37,103 nucleotides of DNA from Deltaproteobacteria bacterium. Lineage in GTDB: Bacteria; Desulfobacterota; Desulfuromonadia; Geobacterales; Pseudopelobacteraceae. The translations under genes and the position numbers were made by a program. The DNA is taken from positions 1 through 37,103 of the forward strand of contig JAJYCS010000017.1 of assembly GCA_021778115.1 (NCBI GenBank), in the 5' to 3' direction. The notes below the pieces were generated by a model. The model was not told the origin of the DNA, did no database searches, and saw only the letters and a list, made by a program, of their open reading frames with translations. Below, piece after piece: positions 3,139 to 22,134 of the stretch (within the stretch, counting starts at the first letter, position 1; each line of letters opens with the position of its first letter).

Positions 3139-3166
3139 CGCACTCCGGTTTTTCACGACGCACACG

Positions 3167-3207
3167 CAGAAACGGCGGCCCATCTCGGGACCGCCGTTTC
3201 TGTTTAC
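3167..3207 (+). terminator. Rho-independent terminator of the nuo operon
   Basis: A perfect 12-bp inverted repeat (3167-3178 with 3191-3202, arms CAGAAACGGCGG / CCGCCGTTTCTG) with a 12-base loop is followed on the plus strand by TTTACA. It lies between the convergent nuoN and mvhD-like genes. The T run is short and only on the plus side, so it best serves nuo; it may also slow transcription arriving from the hydrogenase side. Confidence 0.8.
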
Positions 3208-3227
3208 AGACAACAACGGTACGGTGT

Positions 3228-3710
3228 TTAACCGCTGTCTTCGCTAGGATCGGATTGGGAGGGGAGCTGCCGGAGGCGTTCCGCAAAGTCAACGGTCAGC
3301 CGGGAAAACTTCTCCGCCTCAGCAGCCGAGACATAGTCAAAACAGAACCGGGCGGGATCAATACCCAGCTGTGGGAGGAGGGGGAGGAGGAGTTCAGCGC
3401 GGCAGGCGGCACGGAGATTCCCCTCCTTGTAGTGACAGTCGCCCGGGTGGCAGGCGAGGAGCATTACACCATCGGCGCCGCCTTGAAATGCCTCCAGGAG
3501 AAGGGTCGGCTCCACCCGGCCGGAACACATTACCCGGATCACGGAGAGCTCCGGCGGGACCGGCAGCTGGTTGGCGCCGGCCTTGTCGGCACCGGCGTAG
3601 GAACACCAGGTGCAGAGAAAGGCGACAATCCTGAGGCTCGTCTCGGTATGAGCGGTAGTTGTGGCAGGCCGATGCGCAGTCCATGTATCCGATATCTCCC
3701 GGCAGCTCAT
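3228..3710 (-). CDS. mvhD: MvhD-like iron-sulfur subunit (hydrogenase/HdrA electron connector)
   Basis: MvhD carries a [2Fe-2S] cluster and links the F420-non-reducing hydrogenase MvhAG to heterodisulfide reductase subunit A. The 160-aa product shows the family pattern in order: AFLCTWCSYAGADKAG near residue 32, IRVMCSGRVEP, then LLACHPGDCHYKEGN, giving five conserved cysteines. The tail is a short amphipathic helix. Its ATG overlaps the stop of the HdrA gene by four bases (ATGA, 3707-3710), indicating translational coupling. It is the last gene of the long minus-strand block. In some archaea and bacteria this domain is fused to HdrA; here it is separate. Confidence 0.9.
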   Translation of the reverse strand: MSCREISDTWTAHRPATTTAHTETSLRIVAFLCTWCSYAGADKAGANQLPVPPELSVIRVMCSGRVEPTLLLEAFQGGADGVMLLACHPGDCHYKEGNLRAACRAELLLPLLPQLGIDPARFCFDYVSAAEAEKFSRLTVDFAERLRQLPSQSDPSEDSG

Positions 3711-5644
3711 GCAAGCACCCCCTCGATCTCGGCCCGCAGCATAGCGCGGGAAAATCCGCGGCCGGTTATGGCTCCTGCCGGGCAGGCGGCAACGCAGGTA
3801 CCGCAGCCACGGCAGAGGATATCAGTAACCTCCGCGCTCCGCTCCCGGCTGTTCCAGCCGATCGCCTGGTAGGGGCAGAGCTGGATGCAGGTTCGACATC
3901 CGGCGCACCGCACTGCATCCACCACCGCTACCTGGGGATCCACCACGAGGTCGCGCCCCTCAACCAGCTCAGAGAGGGCAAGACCGGCGGCAGCGGCGCC
4001 GCTGGCAAAGGCTTCACGGATATCCCCGGGCCCTCGGCAGGAACCGGCCAGGTAGACACCAAGCAGAGGGCTGCTGCAGGGAGCGGAGAGGCTATGGAGG
4101 GGGGTGACGAACCCCCCCTCACCGGTTGTAAGCTCGAGGAGTGAGGCAGCCATGCCGGTCCCGTCACCTGCCGCAAGGGGACGCAGCAGGACGATCAGTT
4201 CGGCCGGAACGGACTCGCCGGAGGGGAGGGTGATGGTCTGATCCGGACCACTGCCTGTCACGCGGAGGTCCGACAAACGTTCATAGCGGTGCACCCGGCT
4301 GCGATCACCGTGGTACTGGCGGGCTGCCTCGACCCCAGGGAGAGACTGTTCCCGCACCAGGCGGGTAATCTCTGCACCCTCCAGCTTGGCAGCGGCCAGA
4401 TGGGCGTACTTAAGGGCGGCCCGGCAGCAGGTGGCTGAACAGTACGCGGTAGCCGAGCTGTCCAGGGAACCGGCGCAGTGGACAAGAACAACCGAGGCAG
4501 GCGGGGTCGCGCTGGCGGTTACCAGTTCACCGCCGGTGGGACCGTTCATGGCCAGGAGCCGTTCAAAGCTGTAAGCGGTATGAAGGTTGGTTGCCGCAGC
4601 AAAGGAGGGCGGGATGCTCTGCTGTTCAACGGCACCGGTGGCGATGATGAGCGCCCCGGCCTGCAGCTGCAGCTCCTGTCCGGTATCGGAGAAGTCCATG
4701 GCCCCTGCTACCGGGCATTCAGTCAGGCAGAGGTCGCACGGCGTCCCATTCAGGCGGAGGCAGGCGTCGGCTGCAATGTGCGGGAGGTTCGGCAGGGCGC
4801 CGGCAAAGGGGACGTCAACGGCGGCGAGTTCACCGGTGCGATTCCATCCGTTAGGGCGACGGGCGGGGCAGACCGCTGCGCAGAGCATGCAGCCGATGCA
4901 GAGATCGGGATTGATGAAGCGGGGGCGCTGCCTGACCGTCAGGTTCCAGTTGCCGAAGCTGCCGGTAACGCCGGTCAGATCCGACAGGGTAAGGATGGTT
5001 ACCCGCGGGCTCTCCGGGCCATGCAGGAGCTCCCCCATAAGCGGTTCCAGGAGGCAGGGGCCGCATTCAAGGCCGGGAAAAAGCTCCTCAAACCGGACCG
5101 CCAGGCCACCGATCAACGGTTCCCGTTCTATCAGGGTGACCCTGCGCCCTGCCCGGGCCAGGGTAAGGGCCGCCTGCATCCCGGCAGGCCCGGCGCCTAC
5201 GATCGCCACCTCGGTACGTACCGGCACCTGCCGCTCGGCAAGGGGTTCGTGGCGTTGCACCCGGTACAGGGCGGCGGAGAGCATCCGGGCAGCCTTGCGG
5301 GTGGCCTGCAGGGGGGCGTCGGTTACCCAGGCGACCTGTTCGCGAATGTTCACCAGCTGCAGCATCCAGGGGTTGATCCCCGCATCGGCCAGCAGGCGGC
5401 GGAAGGTGGGCTCATGCTCACGCGGGGAGCAGGCCGCCACCACCACCCGGTCAGGCTGTTCCTGACGCAGCCAGGCGGTAAGCTGTTCAAGATTGTCGGC
5501 GCCGCAGGCCAGTTCATCGACCCTGAAGAGCGGTTTGCAGGGGTGGTGGGCCAACAGGTCCTGCACCTGTGCCCAGTCGATCTTCTCGGTGACGATGCCG
5601 CTGCAGCTGCAGAGGATGACGACGGTCTTGATGCGATCAGGCAT
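3707..5644 (-). CDS. hdrA: HdrA-like FAD/iron-sulfur protein (heterodisulfide reductase subunit A family)
   Basis: HdrA proteins hold the flavin that splits hydrogenase electrons between two acceptors in flavin-based electron bifurcation. The 645-aa product has the HdrA architecture: an N-terminal domain with C12 and C14 (CSCSG) and the VVVAACSPREHEPTFRRLL block (residues 68-86), an FAD Rossmann motif GAGPAG at 150-155, a CGPC motif, an inserted ferredoxin-like cluster (CIGCMLCAAVCP, about residue 255), and two C-terminal [4Fe-4S] motifs (CAGCRTCIQLCP and CRGCGTCVAACP). I chose ATG 5644, which has GGGGGAAACC just before it; an in-frame ATG at 5656 lacks such a site. It overlaps the protease gene by 8 bp and mvhD by 4 bp. 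HdrB and HdrC, the usual heterodisulfide-reducing partners, are not in the window. Confidence 0.9.
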   Translation of the reverse strand: MPDRIKTVVILCSCSGIVTEKIDWAQVQDLLAHHPCKPLFRVDELACGADNLEQLTAWLRQEQPDRVVVAACSPREHEPTFRRLLADAGINPWMLQLVNIREQVAWVTDAPLQATRKAARMLSAALYRVQRHEPLAERQVPVRTEVAIVGAGPAGMQAALTLARAGRRVTLIEREPLIGGLAVRFEELFPGLECGPCLLEPLMGELLHGPESPRVTILTLSDLTGVTGSFGNWNLTVRQRPRFINPDLCIGCMLCAAVCPARRPNGWNRTGELAAVDVPFAGALPNLPHIAADACLRLNGTPCDLCLTECPVAGAMDFSDTGQELQLQAGALIIATGAVEQQSIPPSFAAATNLHTAYSFERLLAMNGPTGGELVTASATPPASVVLVHCAGSLDSSATAYCSATCCRAALKYAHLAAAKLEGAEITRLVREQSLPGVEAARQYHGDRSRVHRYERLSDLRVTGSGPDQTITLPSGESVPAELIVLLRPLAAGDGTGMAASLLELTTGEGGFVTPLHSLSAPCSSPLLGVYLAGSCRGPGDIREAFASGAAAAGLALSELVEGRDLVVDPQVAVVDAVRCAGCRTCIQLCPYQAIGWNSRERSAEVTDILCRGCGTCVAACPAGAITGRGFSRAMLRAEIEGVLA

Positions 5645-6122
5645 GGTTTCCCCCATCGGGATAGCCGGTTCGTTCTTGCACGAGCTTCAGGACGGTGCTG
5701 CAGACGTCAGTAAGCGCCTCCTGTACCGCCGGGGTCAGCTGCTCGCTGAAGGTGGCGACGTCACCTGCTACCACCGCCACCAGATGTATGGCCTCATCAG
5801 GGGGAAGTGGAATCCCCATTCCCCGGCCGATGGCCAGCGCCTCAGCAAGGGAGCAGTCGTGGCCACAGGCGGCATTGCGAGTTACGGTCTCAACCCCGGC
5901 GATCAGGACCTCGCCAGGGACACGGCGTGTATCCCAAAGGGCATCCACGATCACGGCGCGGTCTGCACCGGCCAGCTCCTCCACCAGAAGCAGCCCCCCG
6001 GCGTGGGATTCAACCAGCCGGACGCCGGGCAGCTCGTCGCCGGTCAGCAACTGCCGTACCACCCGGGGGCCGACCCCGTCGTCGGTGAGATAGGGGCATC
6101 CCAGCCCAATCACCACCTGCAT
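5637..6122 (-). CDS. [NiFe]-hydrogenase maturation protease
   Basis: This 161-aa protein belongs to the HycI/HyaD/FrcD endopeptidase family, which removes the C-terminal peptide of the hydrogenase large subunit after nickel insertion. Seen in the sequence: the opening strand VVIGLGCPYLTDDGVGPRVV with its acidic residue (E16 in HybD, here in the LTDDG segment), and the later DRAVIVDALWD segment with the second conserved acidic residue. Length and alternating beta/alpha pattern fit the family. It starts immediately after the large-subunit gene (2 bp gap) and overlaps hdrA, so the substrate is almost certainly the adjacent large subunit. Confidence 0.9.
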   Translation of the reverse strand: MQVVIGLGCPYLTDDGVGPRVVRQLLTGDELPGVRLVESHAGGLLLVEELAGADRAVIVDALWDTRRVPGEVLIAGVETVTRNAACGHDCSLAEALAIGRGMGIPLPPDEAIHLVAVVAGDVATFSEQLTPAVQEALTDVCSTVLKLVQERTGYPDGGNHA

Positions 6123-6124
6123 CG

Positions 6125-7615
6125 CTAGTCCCTGGAGATCCGATCAAGGAGTGCGCCGTCGGATACCCGGCGCACCAGCAGCTCCAGCGGCGCCTTGCCG
6201 AGGGCATGGGTGGCGCAGGAACAGCAGGGATCGTAGAGGCGAAAGGCCATCTCCACCCGGTTCAGTATCCCGTCGTTGCAGAGACCGTTTTTGATCAGTC
6301 CTTTGGCCGCCTTCATGATCGAGAGAGAGATCGGCGCGTTGTTGTTGGTGGTGCCGACGATCAGATTCACCCTCGTGAGTATGCCCCGCTCGTCAGTCTC
6401 GTAGTGATGGGTCAGGGTCCCCCGGGGTGCCTCGACCGAACCTACCCCGGTCCCCGCCCGCGGTGCCACGGCCTGGCGGACATTTGTATCGCAGATGTCC
6501 GGGTGTTCCAGGAGCTCCTCCATCCGTTCCGCGGCGAACAACAGCTCAATCAGCCGGGCCCAGTGGGTAGCCAAGCGGTGGTGAACCGGTAGGTTACGAC
6601 CCTTGGGGCCTTTGCCGAGGAGCCCGAAGGTGTCGTAGAAGCGTTCAAACTCGGCCTGGGCCAGGGGGGTGGCCATCCGATCGGCCACGTTGAGGCGGGA
6701 GAGGGGGGTAGCCTGATAGATGCCACTGTCCAGGCCGTCCACAAAACCGTGCCAGCCAAATTTTTTCAGATAGGGGAACTTCAGGTAGCTCCAGGGCTCC
6801 ACCCGCTCGGCAATATGCTCTTGATAGTCCTTTGGTTCGTAAAGGGTCACCTGATTCCCCAGGGTATCCACCACCCTGATCCTGCCGTCATAGAAGTTGA
6901 CCGCCATGCCGCTGTCCACCGTCCCCATGCTATGGGTCTCGTGACGGTAGAGGTCCGACAGGACTAGGTCCCGATAGGACGGTTCCTTGAGAACGATATC
7001 CGCAAAGAGCTGCAGGGAGAAGCGGGCAAAGGCGACGTTTTCAGCGGCATAACGGCGAAAAGTGATCTGTTGTTCCCGGGTGATCGGTACGGCCCAGCCA
7101 CCGGGGAGGGCACCGCAGAGGTGTACACCGCGACCACCAAGCTCTTTGATTAGTTCGTGGTTGCGGCGTCGGCAGGCGATGACCTGCCCGCCCACCTCCT
7201 GCCCCACCGTGCGGATCACCCCGAGGATGTTTCGTTCGGAGGGAGGCGCATCGGGACCGACGATGAAGTCGGGACCCCCCAGACAGTAAAAATGGGTGGT
7301 GTGGTCGGCGACAAAAAAGGCGTGGTAGATCAATTCGCGGATCCGGCGGGCCGCCGGCAGGCAGGGGACCCCCCAGGCCGCATCCACCGCCTTGATGGCT
7401 GCGATATGGTGCGCCTCGGGGCAGACCCCGCAGATCCGGTTGGTGATGTTCGGCATCTCCTCGGCCGGTCGGCCGATGCAGAATGACTCGAAGCCGCGCA
7501 GCTCCGGAACCTGGAAATAGGCAGCCGTCACCTCGCCGCTGTCGTCAAGGAATATCTCGATCTTGCCGTGGCCCTCAAGGCGGGTGATCGGGTCGATGGT
7601 GATCCTGCGGCTCAT
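6125..7615 (-). CDS. mvhA: [NiFe]-hydrogenase large (catalytic) subunit, MvhA/group 3c-like
   Basis: This is the catalytic subunit that splits or forms H2 at the NiFe(CN)2CO site. In the 496-aa product the four nickel ligands are visible: the L1 motif RICGVCPEAH with C62 and C65, and the L2 motif DPCCSCATH with C464 and C467. The 26 residues after H470 are the expected C-terminal peptide removed by the adjacent protease. The DPCxxCATH form and the partner genes MvhD and HdrA point to group 3c. The start is ATG 7615: it has GGAGA about 8 bases upstream and shares an ATGA overlap with the small-subunit stop. The frame stays open for 85 more codons upstream, but these are low-complexity and overlap the small-subunit gene. 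All four ligands are Cys, so no selenocysteine is used here. Confidence 0.94.
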   Translation of the reverse strand: MSRRITIDPITRLEGHGKIEIFLDDSGEVTAAYFQVPELRGFESFCIGRPAEEMPNITNRICGVCPEAHHIAAIKAVDAAWGVPCLPAARRIRELIYHAFFVADHTTHFYCLGGPDFIVGPDAPPSERNILGVIRTVGQEVGGQVIACRRRNHELIKELGGRGVHLCGALPGGWAVPITREQQITFRRYAAENVAFARFSLQLFADIVLKEPSYRDLVLSDLYRHETHSMGTVDSGMAVNFYDGRIRVVDTLGNQVTLYEPKDYQEHIAERVEPWSYLKFPYLKKFGWHGFVDGLDSGIYQATPLSRLNVADRMATPLAQAEFERFYDTFGLLGKGPKGRNLPVHHRLATHWARLIELLFAAERMEELLEHPDICDTNVRQAVAPRAGTGVGSVEAPRGTLTHHYETDERGILTRVNLIVGTTNNNAPISLSIMKAAKGLIKNGLCNDGILNRVEMAFRLYDPCCSCATHALGKAPLELLVRRVSDGALLDRISRD

Positions 7616-8613
7616 GGTTGTCTCTCCGGTTTTCTGTCGGCCACCACGGAGGCGGCCAGGGTGTAGCGGTACAGGCTTCCCAGGGGGTCGGTCAAACCTA
7701 CCGAAGGAACGGGTCGGGCAGCCCCACCAGCCGCGAGGAGTTCCACGGCGGGTGGACGGATGGCTGCGGCGATGGCGGTGAGGGCTGCAGCACCAGGGTC
7801 GGCGTCCAGATCCAGGGGGCCGTAGCAGCCGGTGCAGGGCATGGCAACGGAGGGACAGAGTGCGGCGCATCCCCCCCTGGTGGCGCTGCCGACACAGGGT
7901 ATCCCCTGCTCAAGGAGGCACCAGCCCGGTTCGGGGATCAGCGCGCAGCTCCGCAGCAGCTGAGGCGTCAAGACACCTCGCTTCTCACGGGGACAGTCAT
8001 CGCAGACCGCCCGTGCAGAACAGCCCAGGAGAGAGCAGGGAGGGGGGAGGGGAGCGCCGGAGGCCAGCTGCCGGATCAGGGCGACGATCTGTTCAGGTTC
8101 CGGTGGGCAGCCCGGCATGCCGTAGTCCACTACTACCGCTTGATCCAGGGCCAGGACACGCGGCAGGAAGGGGGGGAGCTCCAGTTCCCCGGCAGCCACG
8201 TGACTGACCGGCTGCGGTACCAGCCCTTGGGGGTTGTCCAGGGTGGGGGAGGTTCGATAGACCGTCTCCAGCAGGTGCTGTAGACCGTGCTGGTTTGCCA
8301 GGGCAGGAATCCCGCCGCTCACCGCACAGCTGCCGAAGGCGATGAGGAGCCGTGACTTCTGACGCAGGAGCCGGGCCATATCGAGGTTCTCCGCCGTCCG
8401 GAGGGCCCCGTTGAAGAGGGTCACCGCGATGGCCCCGTCCGGCAGCGCCTCTATGTCGGCCCGTTTGCCGTCCAGGAGGCAGGGGCAGAAGATGAAATCG
8501 AAGTGGCGGTCCACCTCCAGGATCGCTTCATGGATGTTAGCCAGGCTGACCTCGCAGCCGCCGCAGGAGGCGGCCCAGTACATGGCCAGTTTCGGTCTCT
8601 CGGTCGCGGTCAT
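7612..8613 (-). CDS. mvhG: [NiFe]-hydrogenase small (iron-sulfur) subunit, MvhG-like
   Basis: The small subunit carries electrons from the NiFe site through FeS clusters. The 333-aa product has the proximal-cluster ligands C17 and C20 (AASCGGCEVSL), then FGSCAVSGG and MPGCPPEPE. A Cys-rich C-terminal region (about residues 192-270) with CSLLGC, CDDCP, CVGS, CAALCP and CTGCYGP is enough for two further [4Fe-4S] clusters, as in MvhG. There is no Tat signal, so the enzyme should be cytoplasmic, in keeping with group 3. GGGGAGGAG lies about 9 bases before ATG 8613. The upstream diguanylate cyclase ends only 23 bp away on the same strand, with no terminator or separate promoter visible between them. 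Confidence 0.92.
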   Translation of the reverse strand: MTATERPKLAMYWAASCGGCEVSLANIHEAILEVDRHFDFIFCPCLLDGKRADIEALPDGAIAVTLFNGALRTAENLDMARLLRQKSRLLIAFGSCAVSGGIPALANQHGLQHLLETVYRTSPTLDNPQGLVPQPVSHVAAGELELPPFLPRVLALDQAVVVDYGMPGCPPEPEQIVALIRQLASGAPLPPPCSLLGCSARAVCDDCPREKRGVLTPQLLRSCALIPEPGWCLLEQGIPCVGSATRGGCAALCPSVAMPCTGCYGPLDLDADPGAAALTAIAAAIRPPAVELLAAGGAARPVPSVGLTDPLGSLYRYTLAASVVADRKPERQP

Positions 8614-8636
8614 TGCCGGTCTCCTCCCCGCTGGGT

Positions 8637-10313
8637 TCAGGCGGGCACCTCGGCCGCCAGCACCCGGTTGCGTCCCGCCTCTTTGGCTTGATACAGGGCT
8701 GTGTCGGCCGCCTTGCAGAGTTTTTCCGGGTCGGGGAAACAGGAGAGGGAGGCCACTCCGCAGCTGAAGGAGGAGGAGAAGGTCTCGTTGCCCACGGGGA
8801 AACGGAGCGAGGCAAAGCTTTCCCGGAGTTGGTTTATGAGTTCAAGGGCCGTGGTCAGGGGGCAGTCGGGCAGGACCAGGGCAAACTCTTCCCCGCCGTA
8901 TCGCCCGACGATATCCCCTTTGCGGACCCGCTGCCCAAGCATCCGGGCCAGGGCCATCAAGACCTGATCACCCATGGCATGGCCGTAGCGGTCGTTAATC
9001 AATTTGAAACGGTCCACATCGATCATGGCGAAGCAGATCTCCTCCCCGTTCCGCTCCGCCCGCGCCACCGCTACCCCCAGGTGTTCCTTGGTGGCGGTGT
9101 GGTTGAAGAGCCCGGTCATGCTGTCCCGAACCATGAAGGAACGGATGATCTTCATTCGCTCTGCCCGTCCGGCCACCGCTGAGATCAGGTTTTCCGGCAC
9201 CACCGGCTTGGTGAGGAACTCATCCCCACCCATTCGCATGGCGTAGAACTGTTTGCCCAGATCGGTCTCGCTGGAGAGGAAGATGATCGGGATACTGAAG
9301 GCGTGGCCGATCTGCCGGACGGTGGCAGCCAGCTCCATGCCGTTGCAGCCTGGCATGTACATGTCGGTCAGGATGAGGTCGGGCTTGAATTCATTGAGCG
9401 GCTCCATGATCTGGAGGGGGTTGTTCACCGCACGGGTGCTCATGCCGGCCTCCTGGAGGATGGCGGCATACAGATCGGTCATCAGGGGGTCGTCATCCAC
9501 TATCAGGATACGGTACGGCTCCGGCTGTGCTGACGCCGTCAGGTTGCTGATGGTGGTGCACAGTTCGGTGACGTTGATCGGCTTGACAAAGTAGGCACTG
9601 GAACCGGCCCGCACCGCCGCCAACCGGGAGAGAAAGTGGTTGGAGGAGGAGATGAAGATCACCGGTAAGTCGGTGCCGATATCCTGGCGGATGGTCTCGG
9701 TCATCTCCGCCCCCCCGGTCGGTCGGTCGGGGAAGATCATGTCCATCACCAGGATGTCGGGGGGGGCGTTGTTCACCGCCTTCTGGAGCTGCTCCAGGGT
9801 GCCGAAAGAGACCACCCGAAATCCGAAACACTCCATCTGGGTCATCAGGGTCAAGCGTTGGTAGGAGTCGTCCTCGCAGAGGTAGACCAGCTTCTGGGGT
9901 CGATCATCCACAGGCAGTTCGCTCGCCGCCACCAGCTCAACGGCCCGGACATCCACGGTCGGGGTGAGGTCAAGCTGGGTCACCTCCTGTTCAAGGCGGC
10001 TGTAACTGTCCTCCCAATGCAGACGCCAGTTTTTATCGGTGCTCTCCGGGGACTGCATCATCCCCTTGATCAGGACGCCGACGGTATCGGCGGCGGCGCT
10101 CAGGCGTTTAAGTCCGAAGGAGGCGCTGCTTCCTTTCAGGGTATGGAGGCGGCGGTGCAGATCCTCCAGGAGGGTTGCATCGAGGGTGCTCTGGCGGGTC
10201 AGCTCTTCATAAGCGGTGCGGATAGCCTCCAGTTGGGTGGGGACCTGCTTCAGGTAGGCCTCACGGATCTTTTTCAGCTTTGCGGCTGCTGCTACGGCTG
10301 CCGGTGTTTCCAT
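8637..10313 (-). CDS. Hpt-REC-REC-GGDEF diguanylate cyclase
   Basis: Predicted to make cyclic di-GMP under phosphorelay control. The 558-aa domain order is: an Hpt domain (about residues 1-110, phosphoacceptor His in LHTLKGSSASFG), a first receiver (about 130-255, acceptor Asp in VMDMIFP, lysine in FVKPIN), a second receiver (about 270-390, Asp in LTDMYMPG, lysine in FLTKPV), and a GGDEF domain (about 395-555). The active-site signature is GGEEF, and an inhibitory RxxD site (RKGD) sits five residues before it, so the cyclase looks active and product-inhibited. A strong AGGAGGGG site precedes ATG 10313. It closes the signalling part of the block, directly upstream of the hydrogenase genes. An Hpt domain on a diguanylate cyclase is uncommon and suggests that it is both a target and a relay. 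Confidence 0.92.
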   Translation of the reverse strand: METPAAVAAAAKLKKIREAYLKQVPTQLEAIRTAYEELTRQSTLDATLLEDLHRRLHTLKGSSASFGLKRLSAAADTVGVLIKGMMQSPESTDKNWRLHWEDSYSRLEQEVTQLDLTPTVDVRAVELVAASELPVDDRPQKLVYLCEDDSYQRLTLMTQMECFGFRVVSFGTLEQLQKAVNNAPPDILVMDMIFPDRPTGGAEMTETIRQDIGTDLPVIFISSSNHFLSRLAAVRAGSSAYFVKPINVTELCTTISNLTASAQPEPYRILIVDDDPLMTDLYAAILQEAGMSTRAVNNPLQIMEPLNEFKPDLILTDMYMPGCNGMELAATVRQIGHAFSIPIIFLSSETDLGKQFYAMRMGGDEFLTKPVVPENLISAVAGRAERMKIIRSFMVRDSMTGLFNHTATKEHLGVAVARAERNGEEICFAMIDVDRFKLINDRYGHAMGDQVLMALARMLGQRVRKGDIVGRYGGEEFALVLPDCPLTTALELINQLRESFASLRFPVGNETFSSSFSCGVASLSCFPDPEKLCKAADTALYQAKEAGRNRVLAAEVPA

Positions 10314-10322
10314 CGTCCCCTC

Positions 10323-10697
10323 CTATGGCGCAACCAGCAGGTTTGCCACCAGCGCCGGCAGCGCCTCCTGCAGCTGTTCATCCTTGGTGATGACGGCATC
10401 CAGGGCCGGGTGGGCCTGACGGATGGGGTCAGCCTCCTCACCGGTGAGCAGGATGAACGGCTGTTTTCCTCCGTTGCCCCGCAATTCGTCAAACAGCTGC
10501 AGCCCGTCCATGAACGGCATGTTCATATCCGAGACCACCAGACAGACCCGGTCGTCGCTGGCCAGGGTCTCCAGGGCCGCCACCCCTCCCTCTGCGGTGA
10601 CGGTCTCGTAGCCGGCCATCTCCAGGGCCATGGCGGTCAGTTCGGCGGTGAACGGGTCGTCGTCAACCACCAGGATTACTGCTGCTCCTTCGCTCAT
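10323..10697 (-). CDS. Single-domain response regulator (CheY-like)
   Basis: A stand-alone receiver of 124 aa with no output domain. Seen: the acidic pair VVDDD at residues 11-14, phosphoacceptor D57 in VVSDMNMPFMDG, the switch Thr in ILLTGEEA, and the lysine in VITKDE. It probably passes phosphoryl groups between the neighbouring CheA hybrid and the Hpt-REC-REC-GGDEF protein, or acts on another target by binding. AAAGGAG lies upstream of ATG 10697. Gaps are 9 bp to the next gene and 12 bp from cheA. Confidence 0.9.
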   Translation of the reverse strand: MSEGAAVILVVDDDPFTAELTAMALEMAGYETVTAEGGVAALETLASDDRVCLVVSDMNMPFMDGLQLFDELRGNGGKQPFILLTGEEADPIRQAHPALDAVITKDEQLQEALPALVANLLVAP

Positions 10698-10709
10698 CCT
10701 GTACTCCTT

Positions 10710-12962: not shown

Positions 12963-12965
12963 GGG

Positions 12966-14462: not shown

Positions 14463-14474
14463 GGCTTAGCCCTG

Positions 14475-15515
14475 TCAGCGGCAGCCGGCCAGTGATTGCA
14501 GGGCCGGGGCGATATCGGCCAGAGGCAGGGTCCGGTCAACCCCACCGCGCTCGATGGCCAGCTTGTTCATGCCGTAGATGACCGAGCTGGCGGCGTCCTG
14601 GGCGAGGGTGGCGCCACCGGCGTTTTTAATGGCCCGCATCCCGGCGACGCCGTCGCTCCCCATGCCGCTCAGGATCAGGCCGATGGCCTGACGGCCGAAT
14701 GATGTGGCGACGGAGTTGAGCATGGTATCGCAGGAGGGGTGATAGATATCGCGTCGATCCTGGGGGCCCAGGGTGATGGTGGGGCCGGTGAGTTGCAGGG
14801 CCTGTTCGGCCGGGTTCAGGTAGACATGGCCCGGTGCCGGTCGTTCGCCGTGAAGCGCTACCGAGACCGCGAGCGGTGTTCCCCCCGCAAGCCAGTCCAC
14901 CATCCCCTGGGTGAACCCCTCCGCGATATGCTGGGTGATGACGATCGGTAGGGGGAAGCTGGCCGGCAGCTGGGAGAGTATCTTGTAGATGGCCTGCGGG
15001 CCGCCGGTTGAGGCGGCAACGGCCACTATCCGGCTCTCGCCTCGCCCCGCCCGGGAGGGTGGCATGGTGATCGGCGAGGGGGGAAGCGCCCGTTTCCTCA
15101 TGGTTGCCAGGTGGGCCGTCATATCAACGCGGGAGAGTACCCGCACCTTGGAGATCAGTTTACGGACGTTCTCAATGCTGATGTCGGGTTTCTCGATCAC
15201 ATCAAGGGCGCCCCGGCTCACCGCCTCGAAGGCGGTGCGGACCCCGGTGAGGGCGGTGATGACCAGGATCGGCACCGGGTGGGCCGCCATGATCTTTTCG
15301 ATCGCCTCAAGCCCTCCCAACACCGGCATTTCGATATCCATGGTCACCAGGTCAGGCTGCAGCGCCAGCACCTTCTCCAGGGCGTCCTTGCCGTCGGAGG
15401 CGTCACCCACCACGGTGATGTCCGGTTCCGAGTTCAAGATGGTGCAGATCAGGTCCCTGATCAGGCCGCTGTCATCGACCACCAGGACCCGTATCGTCTT
15501 GCCGTGCTGTGTCAT
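14475..15515 (-). CDS. cheB: CheB chemoreceptor methylesterase/deamidase
   Basis: CheB removes methyl groups from chemoreceptors and is activated by phosphorylation. In the 346-aa product the receiver spans about 1-125 with phosphoacceptor D60 (LVTMDIEMPVLGG). A linker leads to the esterase domain, with catalytic S169 (VAASTGGP), H196 (ITQHIAEGF) and an Asp in SGMGSDGVAGM. Length is normal. Its start overlaps the receptor stop by four bases (15512-15515), so receptor and demethylase are translationally coupled. Confidence 0.95.
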   Translation of the reverse strand: MTQHGKTIRVLVVDDSGLIRDLICTILNSEPDITVVGDASDGKDALEKVLALQPDLVTMDIEMPVLGGLEAIEKIMAAHPVPILVITALTGVRTAFEAVSRGALDVIEKPDISIENVRKLISKVRVLSRVDMTAHLATMRKRALPPSPITMPPSRAGRGESRIVAVAASTGGPQAIYKILSQLPASFPLPIVITQHIAEGFTQGMVDWLAGGTPLAVSVALHGERPAPGHVYLNPAEQALQLTGPTITLGPQDRRDIYHPSCDTMLNSVATSFGRQAIGLILSGMGSDGVAGMRAIKNAGGATLAQDAASSVIYGMNKLAIERGGVDRTLPLADIAPALQSLAGCR

Positions 15516-17209
15516 GGCTCGGAACGCTCCTTGGTGGTGTGGGGTGTCGTGGTATCGGTCCGCTGTCCCAGGTTGAAGGTCTCCACCAGCGCCCGCAGCT
15601 GTTCGGAAAGGGCGGACAGGGTGCCGGTGATCCGGTTGGTCTGCTGCACCGAGTCGGTGGCGAAGCGGACCCCCTCCTCGATCTCCTTCAGTGCCAGTAC
15701 CACCTGGCTGCTGGCAATCTGCTGCTGCTGGGTAGAGAGGGAGATCTGGCGCGCCGAGCTGGTGGTTTCGTCCACGCCGTCCACGCTCTCAATCAGGATG
15801 GCCACCGTATGGGAGGCGTATTCCTGCCCCTCCTGGATCAGCTGTGAACTCTTCTCCGACGACATGACCAGCCGGTTCACCGCATCCAGGATCTCGGTGA
15901 TCTTTCCCTCGATCTCCCCGGTGGATTCCACGACGCTGTCGGCCAGACGTCGGATCTCCACCGCCACCACGCCGAACCGTTTGCCGGCCTCGCCGGCACT
16001 GGCCGCCTCCAGGGCGGCGTTGAAGGCGATCAGCTTGGTCTGGTTGGCGATATTGTTGATAATCTCCATGATCTTGTTGATCTCTTTTGATTTTCTCCCC
16101 AGTTCGACGATCTCGTTCAGGTTGCTCTGGATGGTGGCGCTGATATCCATGATCTTGAAGGTCAGGTTCTCCACCTCGCTGGCGCCATGCTTGGTGTCGG
16201 CCAGAGTCTTGTCGGCCCGTTCCACCACTCCTTGACTGTGCTGGGCGATCTGGGTGGCGGTTGAGGAAAATTCCTCCATGGTGGAGGAGATCTCCACCAC
16301 CGAGCTGGAGAGCTGCGTGGTGAAGCCGGCCTGCTGGTCCATGTTCAGGGCGATCTCCTTGATCTGGTCGTCCACTTGTGCGGTGATCCCCGCTACCTTG
16401 CTGATGGTCGCATGGAGGCTGCGTATCTGTTCGTTGAACCAGCTGGCCAGCTCGGCGGTCTCATCGGCGGTGCTGATCGGGATGGTCAGGGTCAGATCGT
16501 TGTCAAAGTGCCGCAGCGCCTGCGTAATCGCCTCAATCGGCCCGGAGATGTAGCGCTTGACCAGATAGGTGGAGATGAGGAGCATGCCCGCCAGAAACAG
16601 GATCGTAATAAAGCCGTACTGGAACAGGCTGGTGGCCACCTGCTGATTGATAGCGGCCTGTTCCTTGCCAACCTTGGCCTCAATATCGTCTACATAGATA
16701 CCGGTCCCCACGATCCAGCGCCGGGCCGGGATCGCCTTGGCGTAGGAGATCTTTGGTTTCAGGGTCTCCTCCCCCGGCGCCTTCCACATATACTCGACAA
16801 ACCCTTCACCCTTGCTCCGGCAGGTGTTGGTGATCGCCTGGAGGATGTAGACCCCGTTGGGGTCCCTGAGGTTGGTCTCATCCTTTCCCTCCAAGCGGGG
16901 GTCAGGGTGCTCCAGCATGATGTTGTTGAAGTCGTTGACCCAGATGTAGCCATCCTTGCCATAGCGCATGCTGCGGGCCACCTGCAGCGCCTGGTCAGGG
17001 GGAAGACCGGCGATGACCCTCGCCGCCATCTCGACATACCCCTTGATCTGGTTCTGGCGTTCCGAGAGGAGGGTGGCCCGGTAGAGCTGGAGCCGTTCGT
17101 CACCCCGGGCGATGATGTTTCTGATGGAGATGGCGGAGATGAGCGTGGCTATAAGGATGACGCTCAGAAAGGTGATGCCGAGGATCTTCTTCCGTAACGA
17201 GACATTCAT
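15512..17209 (-). CDS. Methyl-accepting chemotaxis protein with periplasmic single-Cache sensor domain
   Basis: A membrane chemoreceptor of 565 aa: TM helix at about 9-28, a periplasmic sCache_2-like domain at about 35-190 (RYGKDGYIWVND, HPDPRLEGKDETNLRDPNG, and ARRWIVGTGIYVDDIE are typical), TM2 at about 192-214, HAMP, and a long coiled signalling domain. The hairpin tip is recognisable (IANQTKLIAFNAALEAASAG, then KRFGVVAVEIRRLADS). Cache domains of this kind often bind small organic acids, but the ligand cannot be read from sequence. The C-terminus ends in ERSEP, with no CheR-tethering pentapeptide. GGGAGGG precedes ATG 17209. It is the only receptor in the block and so the likely input. 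Confidence 0.95.
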   Translation of the reverse strand: MNVSLRKKILGITFLSVILIATLISAISIRNIIARGDERLQLYRATLLSERQNQIKGYVEMAARVIAGLPPDQALQVARSMRYGKDGYIWVNDFNNIMLEHPDPRLEGKDETNLRDPNGVYILQAITNTCRSKGEGFVEYMWKAPGEETLKPKISYAKAIPARRWIVGTGIYVDDIEAKVGKEQAAINQQVATSLFQYGFITILFLAGMLLISTYLVKRYISGPIEAITQALRHFDNDLTLTIPISTADETAELASWFNEQIRSLHATISKVAGITAQVDDQIKEIALNMDQQAGFTTQLSSSVVEISSTMEEFSSTATQIAQHSQGVVERADKTLADTKHGASEVENLTFKIMDISATIQSNLNEIVELGRKSKEINKIMEIINNIANQTKLIAFNAALEAASAGEAGKRFGVVAVEIRRLADSVVESTGEIEGKITEILDAVNRLVMSSEKSSQLIQEGQEYASHTVAILIESVDGVDETTSSARQISLSTQQQQIASSQVVLALKEIEEGVRFATDSVQQTNRITGTLSALSEQLRALVETFNLGQRTDTTTPHTTKERSEP

Positions 17210-17224
17210 GACAACCCTCCCAGG

Positions 17225-17683
17225 TCACGCAGTAGTGCTTGATAGCAGCTCCCGCAGCGGTATGTCGGCAACAGTGCCCCGCCCACGGGCGAGGCGTTGA
17301 AAATCAACCAGCAGCACCATCCGGTCGTTATGGAGGGTTACCCCCCACACCCCGCGCCGCAGGGCGGCCGGCTCCACCAATGGGGGGAGGGGGGCGATGG
17401 CGCGTATGGGGCACTCAAGCATCTCTTCCGGCTGGTCAATCACCACCAGCCAGGGGCGGTCGCTGTCGTTTCTGATGGCAAGCACCGTTGGGGTTCGGTA
17501 CTGCACGGCGCCCTCTTTGAATCCCAGCAGGTCGTGACTCCAGTGCAGATTGCCGTCATCGTAGTTGGTGCAGGCCACCATGTCGGCTATCTGTTCCATA
17601 TCGATCCCGAACCGGACCTGCGCCAGGGAGAACAGGAACAGGCGTAGCTGCAGCTGCTCCAGCGTCGTGGGGTTGCCGGTCAC
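17225..17683 (-). CDS. cheW: CheW-like coupling protein (second copy)
   Basis: A 152-aa CheW-domain protein, expected to bridge receptor and CheA. The fold signature is visible in LFLFSLAQVRFGIDMEQI, then VLAIRNDSDRPWLVVIDQPEEM and a final hydrophobic strand (MVLLVDFQRLA). It is divergent from typical CheW: the expected segment around a conserved Arg is replaced by NLHWSHDLLGFKEGAVQYRTPT. It may therefore be a specialised or non-canonical coupler, comparable to FrzB. It starts with GTG at 17683, overlapping the previous cheW stop by four bases. Confidence 0.8.
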   Translation of the reverse strand: MTGNPTTLEQLQLRLFLFSLAQVRFGIDMEQIADMVACTNYDDGNLHWSHDLLGFKEGAVQYRTPTVLAIRNDSDRPWLVVIDQPEEMLECPIRAIAPLPPLVEPAALRRGVWGVTLHNDRMVLLVDFQRLARGRGTVADIPLRELLSSTTA

Positions 17684-18198
17684 AGCCGTGCCCTGGTCGC
17701 CAGTTTTTCAGTGTCCAGCAGGGTAATCTGAAGGCCGTCCAGATCGATCGCGCCGGCAGCAAGCTCCCTGGCTATGCCGCTCAGGGTGGACAACGGGGGA
17801 TGGACGGCGCTTACCGGGATGTCCCGGACATCCTCGATGGCGTCCACCAGTATGCCGGAGCGGAAGCTCCCCTGGGTCACCATGGCCACCAGGCAGCTTT
17901 CAGCGGGGACGGTCTCCTGTCCCAGGAGGCTGCGCAGATCAAGCACTGATTCGATATCACCACGCACGTTGATCAGTCCGGGCAGATGGGGCGGCAACCC
18001 CGGCACCCAGGCGACGGGAGTGGGGGGGAGGATCTCACGGACAGTGCTGCCGTACAGGGCAAAGCGATGGATACCGGAGGTGAAGACCACCACCTTGACC
18101 AACTCCGTGTCGACATCGACCACCTCCCGGGCGCGTTGCAACCGCTTGACATGTTCCAGGATCTGGTCGCTCTTCAGTCTGTCCGTACCGCTTGCCAT
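17680..18198 (-). CDS. cheW: CheW coupling protein (first copy)
   Basis: A 172-aa CheW: after a helical N-terminal stretch (about 35 residues) the double-barrel domain runs VVVFTSGIHRFALYGSTVREILPP, then VPGLPPHLPGLINVRGDIESVLDLRSLLG, which is the classic CheW signature, then ILVDAIEDVRDIP. I set the start at ATG 18198, preceded by GGAAGGGGG. The frame extends 46 codons further, but that part overlaps the upstream kinase gene and is Pro/Ser-rich. It is the better-conserved of the two couplers and the likely receptor-CheA adaptor. It ends in the GTGA overlap with the second copy. Confidence 0.9.
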   Translation of the reverse strand: MASGTDRLKSDQILEHVKRLQRAREVVDVDTELVKVVVFTSGIHRFALYGSTVREILPPTPVAWVPGLPPHLPGLINVRGDIESVLDLRSLLGQETVPAESCLVAMVTQGSFRSGILVDAIEDVRDIPVSAVHPPLSTLSGIARELAAGAIDLDGLQITLLDTEKLATRARL

Positions 18199-18214
18199 CG
18201 AGCCCCCTTCCGTG

Positions 18215-19795
18215 TCAGCGGGCGTCACCGGCGGTCCCTCCATCGGAGGGGGGGGAACAGGGGAGTTCGAAGGCGAAGATACTCCCGCCTTCCACCCCCT
18301 GCTCGGCCCAGATGACGCCGCCGTGGTATTCCACAATCTGCCGGCAGATCGGGAGCCCCAGTCCGGTCCCCTTGGGGCGGTCCGTCAGGGTGTCGCCGAC
18401 CTGCTTGAACTTCTCGAACACCCGGCTCCGGTCCTCTTCGGCAATACCGATACCGGTATCGATGACGGTGACCCGCAGACCCTCACCAGCCAGTCGTCCT
18501 GGCCCCGACACGCCGGCGCGGATGGTGACCGTCCCGCTGTCCGTGAACTTGAGGGCGTTGGAGAGGAGGTTGATCACTACCTGGATGATCCGGTCCGGAT
18601 CGCAGGTGATCACCGGTAGGTCTGCCGGGATCTCCCGGCGCAGGGCCAGCCCTTTCTGCTCATAGAGGGGGCTGATGGCCGCAGTGGCACGATCGATCAG
18701 ATCCCCCACCGTTGCCGGCTCGTAGCGCCACTCGATCTTTCCCGCCTCCATCTTTGCCAGATCTAGGACGTCGTTGATCAGGTCAGTGAGGCGTTCCCCT
18801 TCCGCAATGATCACCTCGATGCTCTCGCTCACCTGGGCCACGGTCCGGTCGGTCCTGGCATCGCGGTCGATGAGGCGGGGAAAGATTTGCTCCTCCAGCT
18901 TCTTCCGGATGACCCGGGTAAAGCCGATGATGGAGGTGAGGGGGGTACGGAGCTCGTGGGAGACGGTGGAGATGAAGTCGTCCTTCATCCGCTCGATCTC
19001 TTTTTCCGAGGTGACGTCCCGCACGATCACCAGATTGCCGATGCACTCATCCTGACGTTTCGCGGCGGTCTGTTTCCGGTGGATGACCGCCCCCACCGCA
19101 GAACCGGTCCCCCCCCCTTTTAGTTCCAACTGGGTGGTAGCCGGCAGCTCGGCGTCGTCACCGAACCCGGCGTACAGGGGCGCCAGCTGTTCCGGCAGGA
19201 CCTGGCTGCAGTGCTGACCCATTAGCTCCTGCTCGGTGCGTCCCAGCATCGTGACCAGAGCCGGGTTGACCAGGGTGATCCGGGATTGGGCGTTGGTGAC
19301 CAGCAGGCCGTCAGGCATATTGTTGATGATGGCGGTCAGGTAGGAGAGGGTCTCCTCCTGCTCGCTGGTCTTGGCGGCCAGATCGGCCAGCAGCTGGATG
19401 TTCTGCAGCTTGAGCTGGTGCTTTTCCAAGGCCCGTTTGACGGTGATGGCGATGGTCTCCTGGATCCCCTCATCCTTGAGCACATAATCGATGGCGCCGC
19501 TGCTCAGGGCGTCCACCGCCACCGAGATGCTGCTGACGCTGGTCACCATGATGATCGGCAGGTCCAACTGCTGCTCCCGCAAGGTCTTGATCAACATGAT
19601 GCCGTCCATCTCCGGCATATTGACGTCGGAGACGATCAGGTCGATCTCCGATGCCGCCCGGCAGGTCTCCAGCGCCTCCCTGCCGTTTGTGGCCGTGATT
19701 ACCCGGTAACCGTTGGCCTCCAGGATGGTGGCCAGCATCTCCCGCACAAAGGCGTCGTCGTCGACTACCAGGATGGTTATGGCCTTGGCGCTCAT
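18215..19795 (-). CDS. REC-PAS sensor histidine kinase
   Basis: A soluble 526-aa hybrid kinase with its receiver at the front. Domains: REC at 6-122 (D57 in IVSDVNMPEMDG), a coiled linker, a PAS domain at about 150-265 (IINNMPDGLLVTNAQ, then the VIVRDVTSEKEIERM exit), HisKA with the phosphoaccepting His in VSHELRTPLTSIIGF, and HATPase_c (VINLLSNALKFTDSG, VIDTGIGI, GTGLGLPICRQIV). There are no transmembrane segments, so it senses cytoplasmic signals or takes input through the receiver. GGGAG precedes ATG 19795; the gap to the upstream receiver gene is 28 bp. Likely partners are the neighbouring stand-alone receivers. Confidence 0.93.
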   Translation of the reverse strand: MSAKAITILVVDDDAFVREMLATILEANGYRVITATNGREALETCRAASEIDLIVSDVNMPEMDGIMLIKTLREQQLDLPIIMVTSVSSISVAVDALSSGAIDYVLKDEGIQETIAITVKRALEKHQLKLQNIQLLADLAAKTSEQEETLSYLTAIINNMPDGLLVTNAQSRITLVNPALVTMLGRTEQELMGQHCSQVLPEQLAPLYAGFGDDAELPATTQLELKGGGTGSAVGAVIHRKQTAAKRQDECIGNLVIVRDVTSEKEIERMKDDFISTVSHELRTPLTSIIGFTRVIRKKLEEQIFPRLIDRDARTDRTVAQVSESIEVIIAEGERLTDLINDVLDLAKMEAGKIEWRYEPATVGDLIDRATAAISPLYEQKGLALRREIPADLPVITCDPDRIIQVVINLLSNALKFTDSGTVTIRAGVSGPGRLAGEGLRVTVIDTGIGIAEEDRSRVFEKFKQVGDTLTDRPKGTGLGLPICRQIVEYHGGVIWAEQGVEGGSIFAFELPCSPPSDGGTAGDAR

Positions 19796-19823
19796 GGTGC
19801 ACTCCCTGCGGCGTCCCTCGGAT

Positions 19824-20198
19824 TCAACGTTTCAGGACCTCCCGGGCCTTGGCGAGTACGTCGTCCGGGTTGAACGGTTTTGTCATATACAGGTCAGCCC
19901 CCACCTCCTGGCCCCGTTGCTTGTCAAACTCCTGCCCCTTGGCGGTCAGCAGCACGATGTAGACATCGCCCAGCTCGAGTTCGTTCTTGACCGCGTTGCA
20001 GACATCAAAGCCGCTCATCTTCGGCATCATGACGTCGAGAAAGACCAGCGCAGGCTCCTCATCCCGGATGATCTCCAGGGCGGCCTGACCGTTATCGGCG
20101 GTGATCACCTCGACCCCCTCCTCTTCCAACTCCTCCAGGGTCAGCTCCAACAGGTAGCGGATATGGGGTTCATCATCAACCACCAGTATCTTGGGCAT
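19824..20198 (-). CDS. Single-domain response regulator (CheY-like)
   Basis: A 124-aa stand-alone receiver. Visible residues: VVDDE at 6-10, phosphoacceptor D55 (LVFLDVMMPKMSG), Thr in VLLTAKGQ, and lysine in YMTKPFNP, all in the proper places. A run of glutamates (LEELEEEGVE) lies in the first helix. GGGGAGGAG precedes ATG 20198. It lies between the HD-GYP gene and the REC-PAS kinase, so it probably accepts from that kinase; the output partner is unknown. Confidence 0.92.
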   Translation of the reverse strand: MPKILVVDDEPHIRYLLELTLEELEEEGVEVITADNGQAALEIIRDEEPALVFLDVMMPKMSGFDVCNAVKNELELGDVYIVLLTAKGQEFDKQRGQEVGADLYMTKPFNPDDVLAKAREVLKR

Positions 20199-20233
20199 TT
20201 GGGTCTCCTCCCCGTGCTATCGGCCGGTATACT

Positions 20234-21589
20234 TCAGGCGAGCCGCGCGTTGGCCGTAAAGTAGGCATCCATGACATCTGAGGCGAAAAAGGCCTCCACG
20301 ATCTCCGGGTCAAACTGGGTTCCGGCGTTTTTACGCAGCTCCTCAAACGCCTCTTCAAAGGGGAACCCTTTCCGGTAGGGGCGATCGGTGGTCATGGCGT
20401 CAAAGGAGTCGGCCACGGCTATAATTCGGGCGGTTATGTCGATCTGGGCGCCGCTCAGGCCGTCGGGGTAGCCTCGCCCGTCGAAACGTTCGTGATGGTG
20501 TTTGACACCAGGGATGATGTCGCTCAGTTGCGGTATCCGGCTGATAATCTCCTCCCCAAAGACCGGATGGCGCATGATCTGCTGAAATTCATCCTCGGTG
20601 AGTTTTGACTGTTTGAGGAGGATATCGTCCCGGACCCCGATCTTGCCTATGTCATGGAGGACTGCGGCTAGTTCAAGCCGTTGCAGCTGCTCGTCGGAGA
20701 GATTCAGGGTCCGGCCCAGGGCCAGGCTGTATTCCATCACCCGTTTGGTATGGTTGCCGGTATAGGGGTCCCTTTTTTCGATGGTCTCTGCCAGGGTGTA
20801 GACCATGGTGTAGAAGGCGGCCTTCAACTGCAGGTACAGGGCCGCGTTCTCCATCTGCACCGCTGCCTGGGAGGCCAGCGTGGTGAACAGTTTCAGGTCC
20901 TCTGCCAGATACACCCGCTGGGTGGCGCTGGTCAACATCACGATGCCGATCCTGCTCTCCTTGGAGTGCAGCGGGGCGCACATGAGGGAGCTGACCGTTG
21001 TTGGGCGGTTGACGAAGCGGGGGTCTGTCGCGGCGTCGTTGACGATTTCCCCTTTTCCGGAGGCCCAGACCGCCCCCATGATGCCCTCGGGTTCAAGGCG
21101 GGCGCCTGGCCGGTACTCATTGCCTTCAGCAAGGAGCACCTCCAGAAGGCCGGTTTCCTTGTCCTGCAGCAGCACCGTGGCGCTGGTGAACGTGATCACC
21201 TGGCGGAGTTGTTCGAGGAGAAACGACGCGATCTCACGGGGTTCCATGCAAAACGGTATCTTGTCGGCAGTCTCGTAGAGGAGGGTGATCTCACGGTATT
21301 TGTGTAGTGTCTCGTTGCCCAGGTGTTTTCGTTCAAGCTCGATCTCGGCGTGGTAGGAGAGCAGAGAGGCCAGCAGTGAGGCCTTTTCATCGCCATAGAC
21401 CCGGCCGATCAGCTCCCCTTGGACGGTTACCGGATAGCAGGTGACGGCCCGTTCCCCTTCCGTTGCCAGCAGGAGGGTTCCGTCGGCCTCTTCAATCACC
21501 AGTGGGGTTGCCAAGGTGGTGACCAGGCGGGTTACCAGCGGGCTGAACGGCCTCCGTTTGAGCACCTTGCCAAGCGTGATACTGTTCAT
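20234..21589 (-). CDS. GAF/HD-GYP domain protein, predicted cyclic di-GMP phosphodiesterase
   Basis: A 451-aa protein with an N-terminal region of about 115 residues of unassigned fold, a GAF sensor domain (about 120-260) and an HD-GYP domain (about 265-440). The metal-binding HD motif is in LHDIGKIGV, and the HHERFDGRGYPDGL segment gives an intact GYP signature, so activity against c-di-GMP (or a related cyclic dinucleotide) is likely. No transmembrane segment is present. AAAGGAA precedes ATG 21589. It lies 42 bp downstream of the TusA-like gene. At the other end of the same block is a GGDEF synthase, giving an opposing pair. Confidence 0.92.
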   Translation of the reverse strand: MNSITLGKVLKRRPFSPLVTRLVTTLATPLVIEEADGTLLLATEGERAVTCYPVTVQGELIGRVYGDEKASLLASLLSYHAEIELERKHLGNETLHKYREITLLYETADKIPFCMEPREIASFLLEQLRQVITFTSATVLLQDKETGLLEVLLAEGNEYRPGARLEPEGIMGAVWASGKGEIVNDAATDPRFVNRPTTVSSLMCAPLHSKESRIGIVMLTSATQRVYLAEDLKLFTTLASQAAVQMENAALYLQLKAAFYTMVYTLAETIEKRDPYTGNHTKRVMEYSLALGRTLNLSDEQLQRLELAAVLHDIGKIGVRDDILLKQSKLTEDEFQQIMRHPVFGEEIISRIPQLSDIIPGVKHHHERFDGRGYPDGLSGAQIDITARIIAVADSFDAMTTDRPYRKGFPFEEAFEELRKNAGTQFDPEIVEAFFASDVMDAYFTANARLA

Positions 21590-21631
21590 AACCGTTCCTT
21601 TGCGGCGGGGACAGCCGTGTTGCGGGAGAGA

Positions 21632-21856
21632 TCAGAATTTGATCTGGGCGCGTTTTTTACCGTCCCCTTCATCCCGTATCCAGAGGATGGTCTTACGGGA
21701 ACGGGCGCACCAGTCGCGGAGGTCTTTCTCGAAGGTGTGGCAATCGGCGATCACCTCAAGTAGGTCGCCAGGCTGCATCTTGGTTGCCATTACGGTGAGC
21801 TTTAAGGTCGGTTGGGGGCACTTCAGGCCGAGGCAGTCAAGGGTCTGGCTGGACAT
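21632..21856 (-). CDS. TusA/SirA-family sulfur carrier protein
   Basis: A 74-aa protein of the TusA fold, which carries sulfur as a persulfide on a cysteine for thio-modification, molybdenum-cofactor or redox-sulfur pathways. The signature is LDCLGLKCPQPTLKL, with the carrier cysteine at C13 in the CPxP motif and an extra cysteine at C8. I chose ATG 21856: AAGGAG ends five bases before it, while an in-frame GTG at 21862 would sit on top of the ribosome site. It is the first gene of the long minus-strand block and follows a good promoter. Whether it serves the hydrogenase/HdrA module or simply shares the promoter cannot be told. Confidence 0.85.
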   Translation of the reverse strand: MSSQTLDCLGLKCPQPTLKLTVMATKMQPGDLLEVIADCHTFEKDLRDWCARSRKTILWIRDEGDGKKRAQIKF

Positions 21857-21934
21857 GGGCACTCCTTGTCGGGAGAGGATTGTGGTGAGACGGCAGAAAA
21901 AGGATGCCGTTTTATTTTTCCCTATTGCCCGTTT

Positions 21935-22127: not shown

Positions 22128-22134
22128 GAACGAG

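Follow-up and report, generated by a model that had tools for sequence, protein, structure and literature searches.

To our knowledge, no connection with a metabolic enzyme has been described for most chemosensory pathways that serve functions other than motility. The closest described systems come from two sides. In the accessible part of PMC3447774, a CheR methyltransferase with TPR repeats and a multidomain response regulator are tied to pathways with alternative cellular functions (ACF), and WspC and WspR of the Pseudomonas Wsp system are described. On the hydrogenase side, MvhV, a methyl-accepting chemotaxis protein (MCP), is listed with the Mvh cluster GSU2416-2423 of G. sulfurreducens (PMC7894505 and PMC8691401, both partly accessible), and che clusters of Geobacter have been described as well (PMC2577667, likewise accessible in part). 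Here we analyse a block of 17 genes in which a whole chemosensory pathway adjoins a [NiFe] hydrogenase. It lies on a 37,103-nucleotide stretch of contig JAJYCS010000017.1 (assembly GCA_021778115.1, a Deltaproteobacteria bacterium of the order Geobacterales, family Pseudopelobacteraceae), called the window below.

The explanation that we favour, with moderate confidence, is that the block is one operon in which a chemosensory pathway of Wsp-like type is coupled to a cytoplasmic hydrogenase of Mvh-HdrA type, and that a signal from outside the cell sets the level of cyclic di-GMP (c-di-GMP). The operon reading is based on the gene content, the intact motifs, the tight spacing of the genes, a promoter candidate at the head, a hairpin at the end, and the conserved linkage of the two halves.

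Gene content and ends of the block

The 17 open reading frames (ORFs) are collinear on the minus strand, from 21856 down to 3228, and each has a Pfam match, including tusA, which at 74 residues fell under the length limit of the ORF lists and was translated separately. None of the 16 junctions has a gap of more than 42 bp or an overlap of more than 20 bp: the gaps are 42, 35, 28, 16, 15, 12, 3, 12, 9, 23 and 2 bp, and the overlapping junctions are four of 4 bp and one of 20 bp (hycI/hdrA). The preliminary description of this DNA, which had reported 17 collinear genes with gaps of at most 42 bp and several 4-bp overlaps, is thus borne out at every junction, the 20-bp overlap being an addition. 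It had also placed the stop of the diguanylate cyclase 23 bp from the start of the hydrogenase small subunit, with a ribosome site between them, and this junction (8614-8636) does contain GGGGAGGAGA.

Neither a terminator nor a second promoter had been visible in the earlier reading. Over positions 2500-22400 we found 11 terminator-like sites on both strands against 11.3 expected by chance, so that internal terminators were rejected, and two sigma70-like sites against 3.9 expected, neither of them significant by number alone. The second of these sites lies inside cheA (10966-10938). The first is a candidate sigma70-type promoter, TTGACA-16-TATTGT, at 21935-21962 on the minus strand, 78 bp ahead of the first start codon; both hexamers and the 16-nt spacing are kept against a diverged background in the same-genus locus L044, which is a single comparison. 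A sigma54 promoter was considered and rejected, as the pattern gave two matches against 3.25 expected and none upstream of the operon. At the other end, a strong hairpin with a 12-bp stem (3167-3202) closes the block between mvhD and a convergent gene, and is shared by both; the intergenic stretch that holds it has a folding z-score of -2.68. This convergent gene, presumably nuoN from its translation, faces the block downstream, and genes for tRNA-Sec, tRNA-Arg and tRNA-Ser lie upstream. As far as the sequence goes, the likeliest reading is that the block forms one co-transcribed unit.

The first gene (21632-21856; all genes of the block are given by their minus-strand coordinates) encodes a TusA-family sulfur carrier (Pfam TusA, 8.9e-16). 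It is followed by a GAF-HD-GYP c-di-GMP phosphodiesterase (20234-21589) with the HDIGK and HHERFDGRGYP motifs kept, a protein with a single receiver (REC) domain (19824-20198), a REC-PAS-histidine kinase (18215-19795) and two CheW proteins, of which the second is divergent (17225-17683). For the first CheW (17680-18198), the ATG at 18198, behind GGAAGGGGG, is a better start than the TTG at 18336. After the chemoreceptor come a CheB methylesterase with its active-site motif (14475-15515), a CheR-TPR methyltransferase (12966-14462), a hybrid CheA-REC with the H, N and G boxes kept (10710-12962), another single receiver domain protein (REC2, 10323-10697), and a PleD-like diguanylate cyclase of Hpt-REC-REC-GGDEF architecture (8637-10313) in which RYGGEEF and the I-site RKGD are kept. 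The best PDB match of the cyclase is PleD, WspR chains being weaker.

CheR-TPR, the multidomain response regulator, the hybrid CheA-REC, CheB, two CheW proteins and an MCP are traits of the ACF class, and judged by these domains the signalling half is a Wsp-like pathway of the non-motility type. The earlier suggestion that the pathway works instead of motility fits the CheR-TPR and the multidomain response regulator, the two traits tied to alternative functions in what is accessible of PMC3447774. No flagellar genes are present among the 17 block genes; the FlhA family is encoded on another contig (C44) of the same genome, in whose 2.29 Mb there are 26 MCP-domain matches (13-40 in five other genomes).

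The hydrogenase half begins with a small subunit of VhuG/MvhG type (7612-8613; VhuG 8.9e-59) and a large subunit of VhuA/MvhA type (6125-7615; VhuA 2.4e-109), both matches being below the NCBIfam equivalog cut-offs. The large-subunit ORF was listed with 581 residues and is taken here from 7615, giving 496; both of its Ni-site motifs are kept, and its best PDB matches are 7t2r, 9sw2 and 5odc. Profile matches identify a hydrogenase maturation protease (hycI, 5637-6122) and an HdrA-like FAD/iron-sulfur protein (3707-5656), and the last gene encodes MvhD/FlpD (3228-3710; FlpD 3.9e-45). MvhA, MvhG and MvhD are thus all present together with the Ni-site motifs, as in the Mvh/Vhu type (group 3c).

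Linkage of the two halves in related genomes

We scored 141 genomes of the order with cut-offs of E<=1e-80 for the small subunit (50 positive) and E<=1e-170 for the CheA class (35 positive, with seven candidates per genome scored). G051, whose CheA was seen otherwise, was missed by this scoring and is negative in the statistics. Loci were mapped for all 50 hydrogenase genomes, some of them short at contig ends. In 21 of the 50, the window and 20 others, the 5 kb upstream of the hydrogenase contain a CheA of the same class (409-4807 bp from mvhG in the 20), and in all 21 of these close upstream cases it is co-oriented with the hydrogenase. The question raised in the preliminary description, whether the halves are always separate in relatives, is therefore answered in the negative: they are linked in several arrangements, eight times with the hydrogenase inside the signalling genes. 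Moreover, 29 of the 35 genomes with the CheA class have the hydrogenase, as do 21 of the 106 without it (141 genomes: 29, 6, 21, 85), a co-occurrence with a Fisher value of 2.9e-11 if kinship is ignored; by genus the counts are 9, 2, 4 and 14 (p 0.0027).

Four arrangements hold the halves together, namely the cyclase before the hydrogenase, the cassette inside the signalling genes, the hydrogenase first, and the two divergent. The far side of 15 loci was examined for the cyclase. A full cyclase of the window type stands before mvhG in 10 of the 21 linked genomes (the window, G013, G051, G026, G041, G080, G059, G083, G087 and G118), with 2.5 kb between the two in G059 and G083. In eight others (G060, G074, G073, G069, G075, G091, G068 and G092, where the contig end cuts the gene) a cyclase 56-61% identical to that of the window lies behind tusA, on the same strand and 37-82 bp away, and therefore the hydrogenase-TusA cassette is placed between receiver and cyclase, inside the signalling operon. 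The contigs of G020 and G089 end too early to show the place of the cyclase, and in G084 none of the window type was found within the stretch examined. Outside the 21, the cyclase lies behind tusA in G081 and G057, at 156 and 181 bp; G057 has a co-directional CheA 15 kb upstream, and the contig of G081 breaks off at the receiver gene ahead of mvhG, with CheA near the start of another contig. G129 has the order hydrogenase, TusA, CheW, CheW, MCP, CheB, CheR, with CheA 15.8 kb past mvhG. In che clusters that have no hydrogenase (L089, L092, L093, L098), receiver and cyclase are adjacent.

The tusA gene heads the operon in the window and in L044, unlike in 16 loci where it stands behind mvhD (L045, L048, L052, L053, L054, L056, L062, L063, L066, L068, L073, L076, L080, L081, L083 and L087), and the sulfur carrier TusA may be a regular partner of the HdrA-type hydrogenase. 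In L090, of genome G123, the che cluster ends with the receiver gene and tusA 101 bp apart and no hydrogenase between them, the hydrogenase being on another contig. Perhaps this is the scar of a lost cassette.

Trees were scored with G057 and G081 as linked. On the mvhA tree (46 rows) the linked label changes seven times, at least six by the starred branches, against 15.7 when shuffled; on the CheA tree (37 rows) it also changes seven times, at least six, against 10.3. The hydrogenase type of the window and G013 is also found in unlinked genomes, and the window mvhA is about 80% identical to that of four of these. The mvhG of this type is only 51% identical to that of 15 linked family-mates although CheA is at 67%, and the hdrA of the window alone is only 43% identical to that of 10 linked family-mates; other linked groups at like CheA identity keep 63-67% in mvhG. 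Genomes with the window/G013 hydrogenase type are not one clade in the CheA tree (p 1.4e-6 and 0.002). In the mvhA test the alternative grouping was not rejected (p 0.18), so that replacement of the hydrogenase in place amounts to discordance and not to a proven swap. These comparisons are suggestive only of a past exchange of the cassette.

Beyond the order, the che cluster is divergent from the hydrogenase in L041, which belongs to a bin labelled Acidobacteria, possibly by misbinning; identity is 55% for the MCP and 58% for CheA. Of 395 genomes drawn evenly from the phylum, 15 have the small subunit at 1e-80, and no window-class CheA was found beside the hydrogenase in the ten of these that fall outside the order, some of them on short contigs. 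In G419 (L102), a 363-residue MCP stands just upstream of the hydrogenase, and some 11 kb off, beyond unrelated genes, there is a different CheA-REC (33%).

Receptor input and competing explanations

The window chemoreceptor (15512-17209) has two transmembrane-like stretches flanking an sCache_2 domain, followed by HAMP and the MCP signalling domain. The PDB relatives of its input domain are MCP sensory domains (4k08, 5g4y, 2qhk), and Cache domains of the sCache_2-like kind often bind short carboxylates. Its aligned part has 345 residues, 28 more than the 317 in Tsr, which we take as a hint at class 40H, but it is equal in length to 2ch7. We compared 21 linked receptors, those of the window, 18 co-directional loci, G129 and L041 (one per locus, although L078 has two), and computed transmembrane stretches for the window receptor and seven others. 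The input domain is sCache_2 in seven and sCache_3_3 in six; in seven others the N-terminal part is long and matches no Pfam family, and in one (L074) it is short. Even the same-genus relative of the window has sCache_3_3 where the window has sCache_2. Matched parts are 55-79% identical to the window receptor, often in the signalling half alone. The input of the pathway thus changes between loci and the rest is kept. From the domain make-up of the linked receptors we ranked direct H2 sensing by them lower, and such sensing by the pathway through the window receptor seems unlikely.

If the block is an operon of the kind we favour, a small extracellular metabolite would bind the Cache domain of the receptor. 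The receptor and the CheW proteins would set the activity of CheA, with CheR-TPR and CheB providing adaptation, and phosphate would pass from CheA to its own receiver and on, by way of the Hpt domain, until it reaches the receivers of the cyclase. The HD-GYP enzyme would oppose this diguanylate cyclase, so that the output would be a level of c-di-GMP, acting on attachment, matrix or motility. With the hydrogenase made from the same transcript, H2 uptake or release would be at hand whenever the pathway is made. A functional link between the halves is likely; the direction of information flow is one that we infer.

Several observations weigh against this operon model. About half of the hydrogenase genomes are without the CheA linkage, and six of the 30 genomes with both modules have them on different contigs (G123, G034, G106, G071, G095, G035), CheA being absent from the 10-15 kb examined upstream of mvhG in these six. 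In the genus of the window, 13 of 15 genomes, some of them incomplete, pass neither cut-off; the other two pass them and both are linked. The linkage counts are also not independent, because the linked genomes are related. Nor is the unit always tight, since in G013, the same-genus relative, hycI and hdrA are 3.9 kb apart (L149, 2418-6330) and several loci have stretches of 1.5-4 kb elsewhere in the block. Finally, the same picture would result if the halves were co-expressed and did not signal to each other at all.

Receptors also adjoin hydrogenase genes where this CheA is missing. An MCP without CheA stands directly upstream in G035, G030, G095 and G115, with 18-64 bp between the end of its signalling domain and the mvhG match; a receiver gene is present besides in G035, and G035 and G095 are also among the six genomes with the modules apart. 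In G338 (L103), an sCache_2 MCP lies behind tusA. The genome of the window itself has a second [NiFe] operon on contig 46 (L130), with small and large subunits, a protease, an MCP and a sub-threshold ATC_hydrolase match. This MCP (7726-9330) overlaps the protease gene and is of soluble type, having HAMP_2 domains and no transmembrane-like stretch, and MCP matches occur at like distance on the same strand in six of six second-hydrogenase loci (the domain scan being for L130 alone). The remaining hydrogenase loci had no MCP in the stretch examined, save G090 (other strand, 5.2 kb) and G019 (11 kb). These pairs favour an explanation in which the hydrogenase would be the input, H2 or the redox state of Mvh-HdrA-MvhD being read by the pathway, perhaps via TusA or the PAS kinase, to set c-di-GMP or taxis. 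One fixed intracellular signal is a misfit, however, to 13 of 21 linked receptors with Cache inputs of two kinds and seven with a long unnamed N-terminal part, and we consider this explanation unlikely. Equally doubtful, in our judgement, is a wider proposal in which the receptor-hydrogenase pairing would be a general functional unit, repeatedly rebuilt in the order and beyond, with exchangeable sensors, a fixed CheA/c-di-GMP core and an embedded hydrogenase that passes its redox state on to the same array. If it were true, the cell would weigh outside nutrients and internal H2 or electron pressure together when it decides whether to attach or to move.

In L042, a weak receptor match (14517-14720, 29 bits), perhaps a remnant, lies just upstream of mvhG, and L047 has a 327-residue receptor at the matching position. 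In G115 (L084, 5272-10668), two genes of proton-antiporter type (nuoM/nuoN-like), the MCP and mvhG follow on one strand; the window also has nuoM/nuoN-like genes beside the block, but convergent.

It is rather improbable that the hydrogenase is under the control of the pathway, whether by protein contact or by transcription that depends on c-di-GMP, such that H2 metabolism would be the chemosensory output. The adjacency, the co-orientation of all 21 close upstream cases and the cassette inside the signalling genes in eight genomes would suit such control. However, the Pfam scan of the 17 proteins (E<=0.001) gave no output domain of DNA-binding type, because of which control of hydrogenase transcription would be indirect, and autoregulation would hit both halves alike. 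Direct switching of hydrogenase transcription by the pathway therefore looks, from the predicted proteins, unlikely. The system had been described as one that regulates, or is regulated with, H2 metabolism; of these, co-regulation is the safer claim, and regulation in the sense stated is not supported. That the halves are mere neighbours, two operons sharing a promoter by history, would suit the lineages that lack the linkage and the six of 30 genomes that keep the modules apart, but is made highly improbable by the four arrangements that hold the halves together, the at least six gains or losses of linkage on the mvhA tree, and the co-occurrence. Kept through changes of gene order and sensor, the operon would offer a genetic handle on how the c-di-GMP-dependent surface life of Geobacter-type bacteria relates to H2 and electron flow.

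Elsewhere in the window, an Arf/Ras-like GTPase and a Roadblock protein, presumably an MglA/MglB-like pair, are encoded at 22452-23553, upstream of the tRNA genes. A cobalamin riboswitch is found at the end of the window (36859-37014), in a region that encodes, on the same strand, CobS and a phosphoribosyltransferase of the DBI_PRT type.

Comparison with known systems

Like the Wsp system of Pseudomonas, an ACF pathway, the block brings together in a single cluster an MCP, two CheW proteins, CheR-TPR, CheA-REC, CheB and an output through GGDEF. It differs in its cyclase, which is Hpt-REC-REC-GGDEF where WspR is REC-GGDEF, in the added HD-GYP enzyme, receiver and PAS kinase, in the Cache domain of its receptor, and in being joined to a hydrogenase. 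Since the cyclase has an Hpt domain and two receivers, and PleD and not WspR as its best PDB match, we did not file the system as Wsp itself.

The hydrogenase half resembles MvhAGD-HdrABC of methanogens (group 3c, with electron-bifurcating Hdr) in its large and small subunits, MvhD and HdrA, and is unlike it in having TusA and a protease. No HdrB-type CCG domain was found in the block by the Pfam scan of its 17 proteins (there are 11 CCG matches elsewhere in the genome) and HdrC was not searched for.

The che clusters of Geobacter, as far as the accessible part of PMC2577667 describes them, are also multiple and stand apart from the flagellar genes, and CheA-CheY fusions occur in some of them; figures and supplements aside, its text makes no use of the word hydrogenase. 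Within the literature searched, which covered few subscription papers, we found no description of a hydrogenase operon that includes a complete chemosensory pathway. Even so, the earlier statement that no described system has this arrangement was too strong, since an MCP, MvhV, is already listed with the Mvh cluster of G. sulfurreducens in the accessible text of PMC7894505 and PMC8691401. That cluster, GSU2416-2423, may correspond by gene content to the second hydrogenase (L130) of the genome studied here. The block is like it in that the gene cluster of a cytoplasmic [NiFe] hydrogenase includes one for a chemoreceptor, and unlike it in having the whole pathway with CheA and c-di-GMP enzymes, where one MCP is named in those accessible parts.

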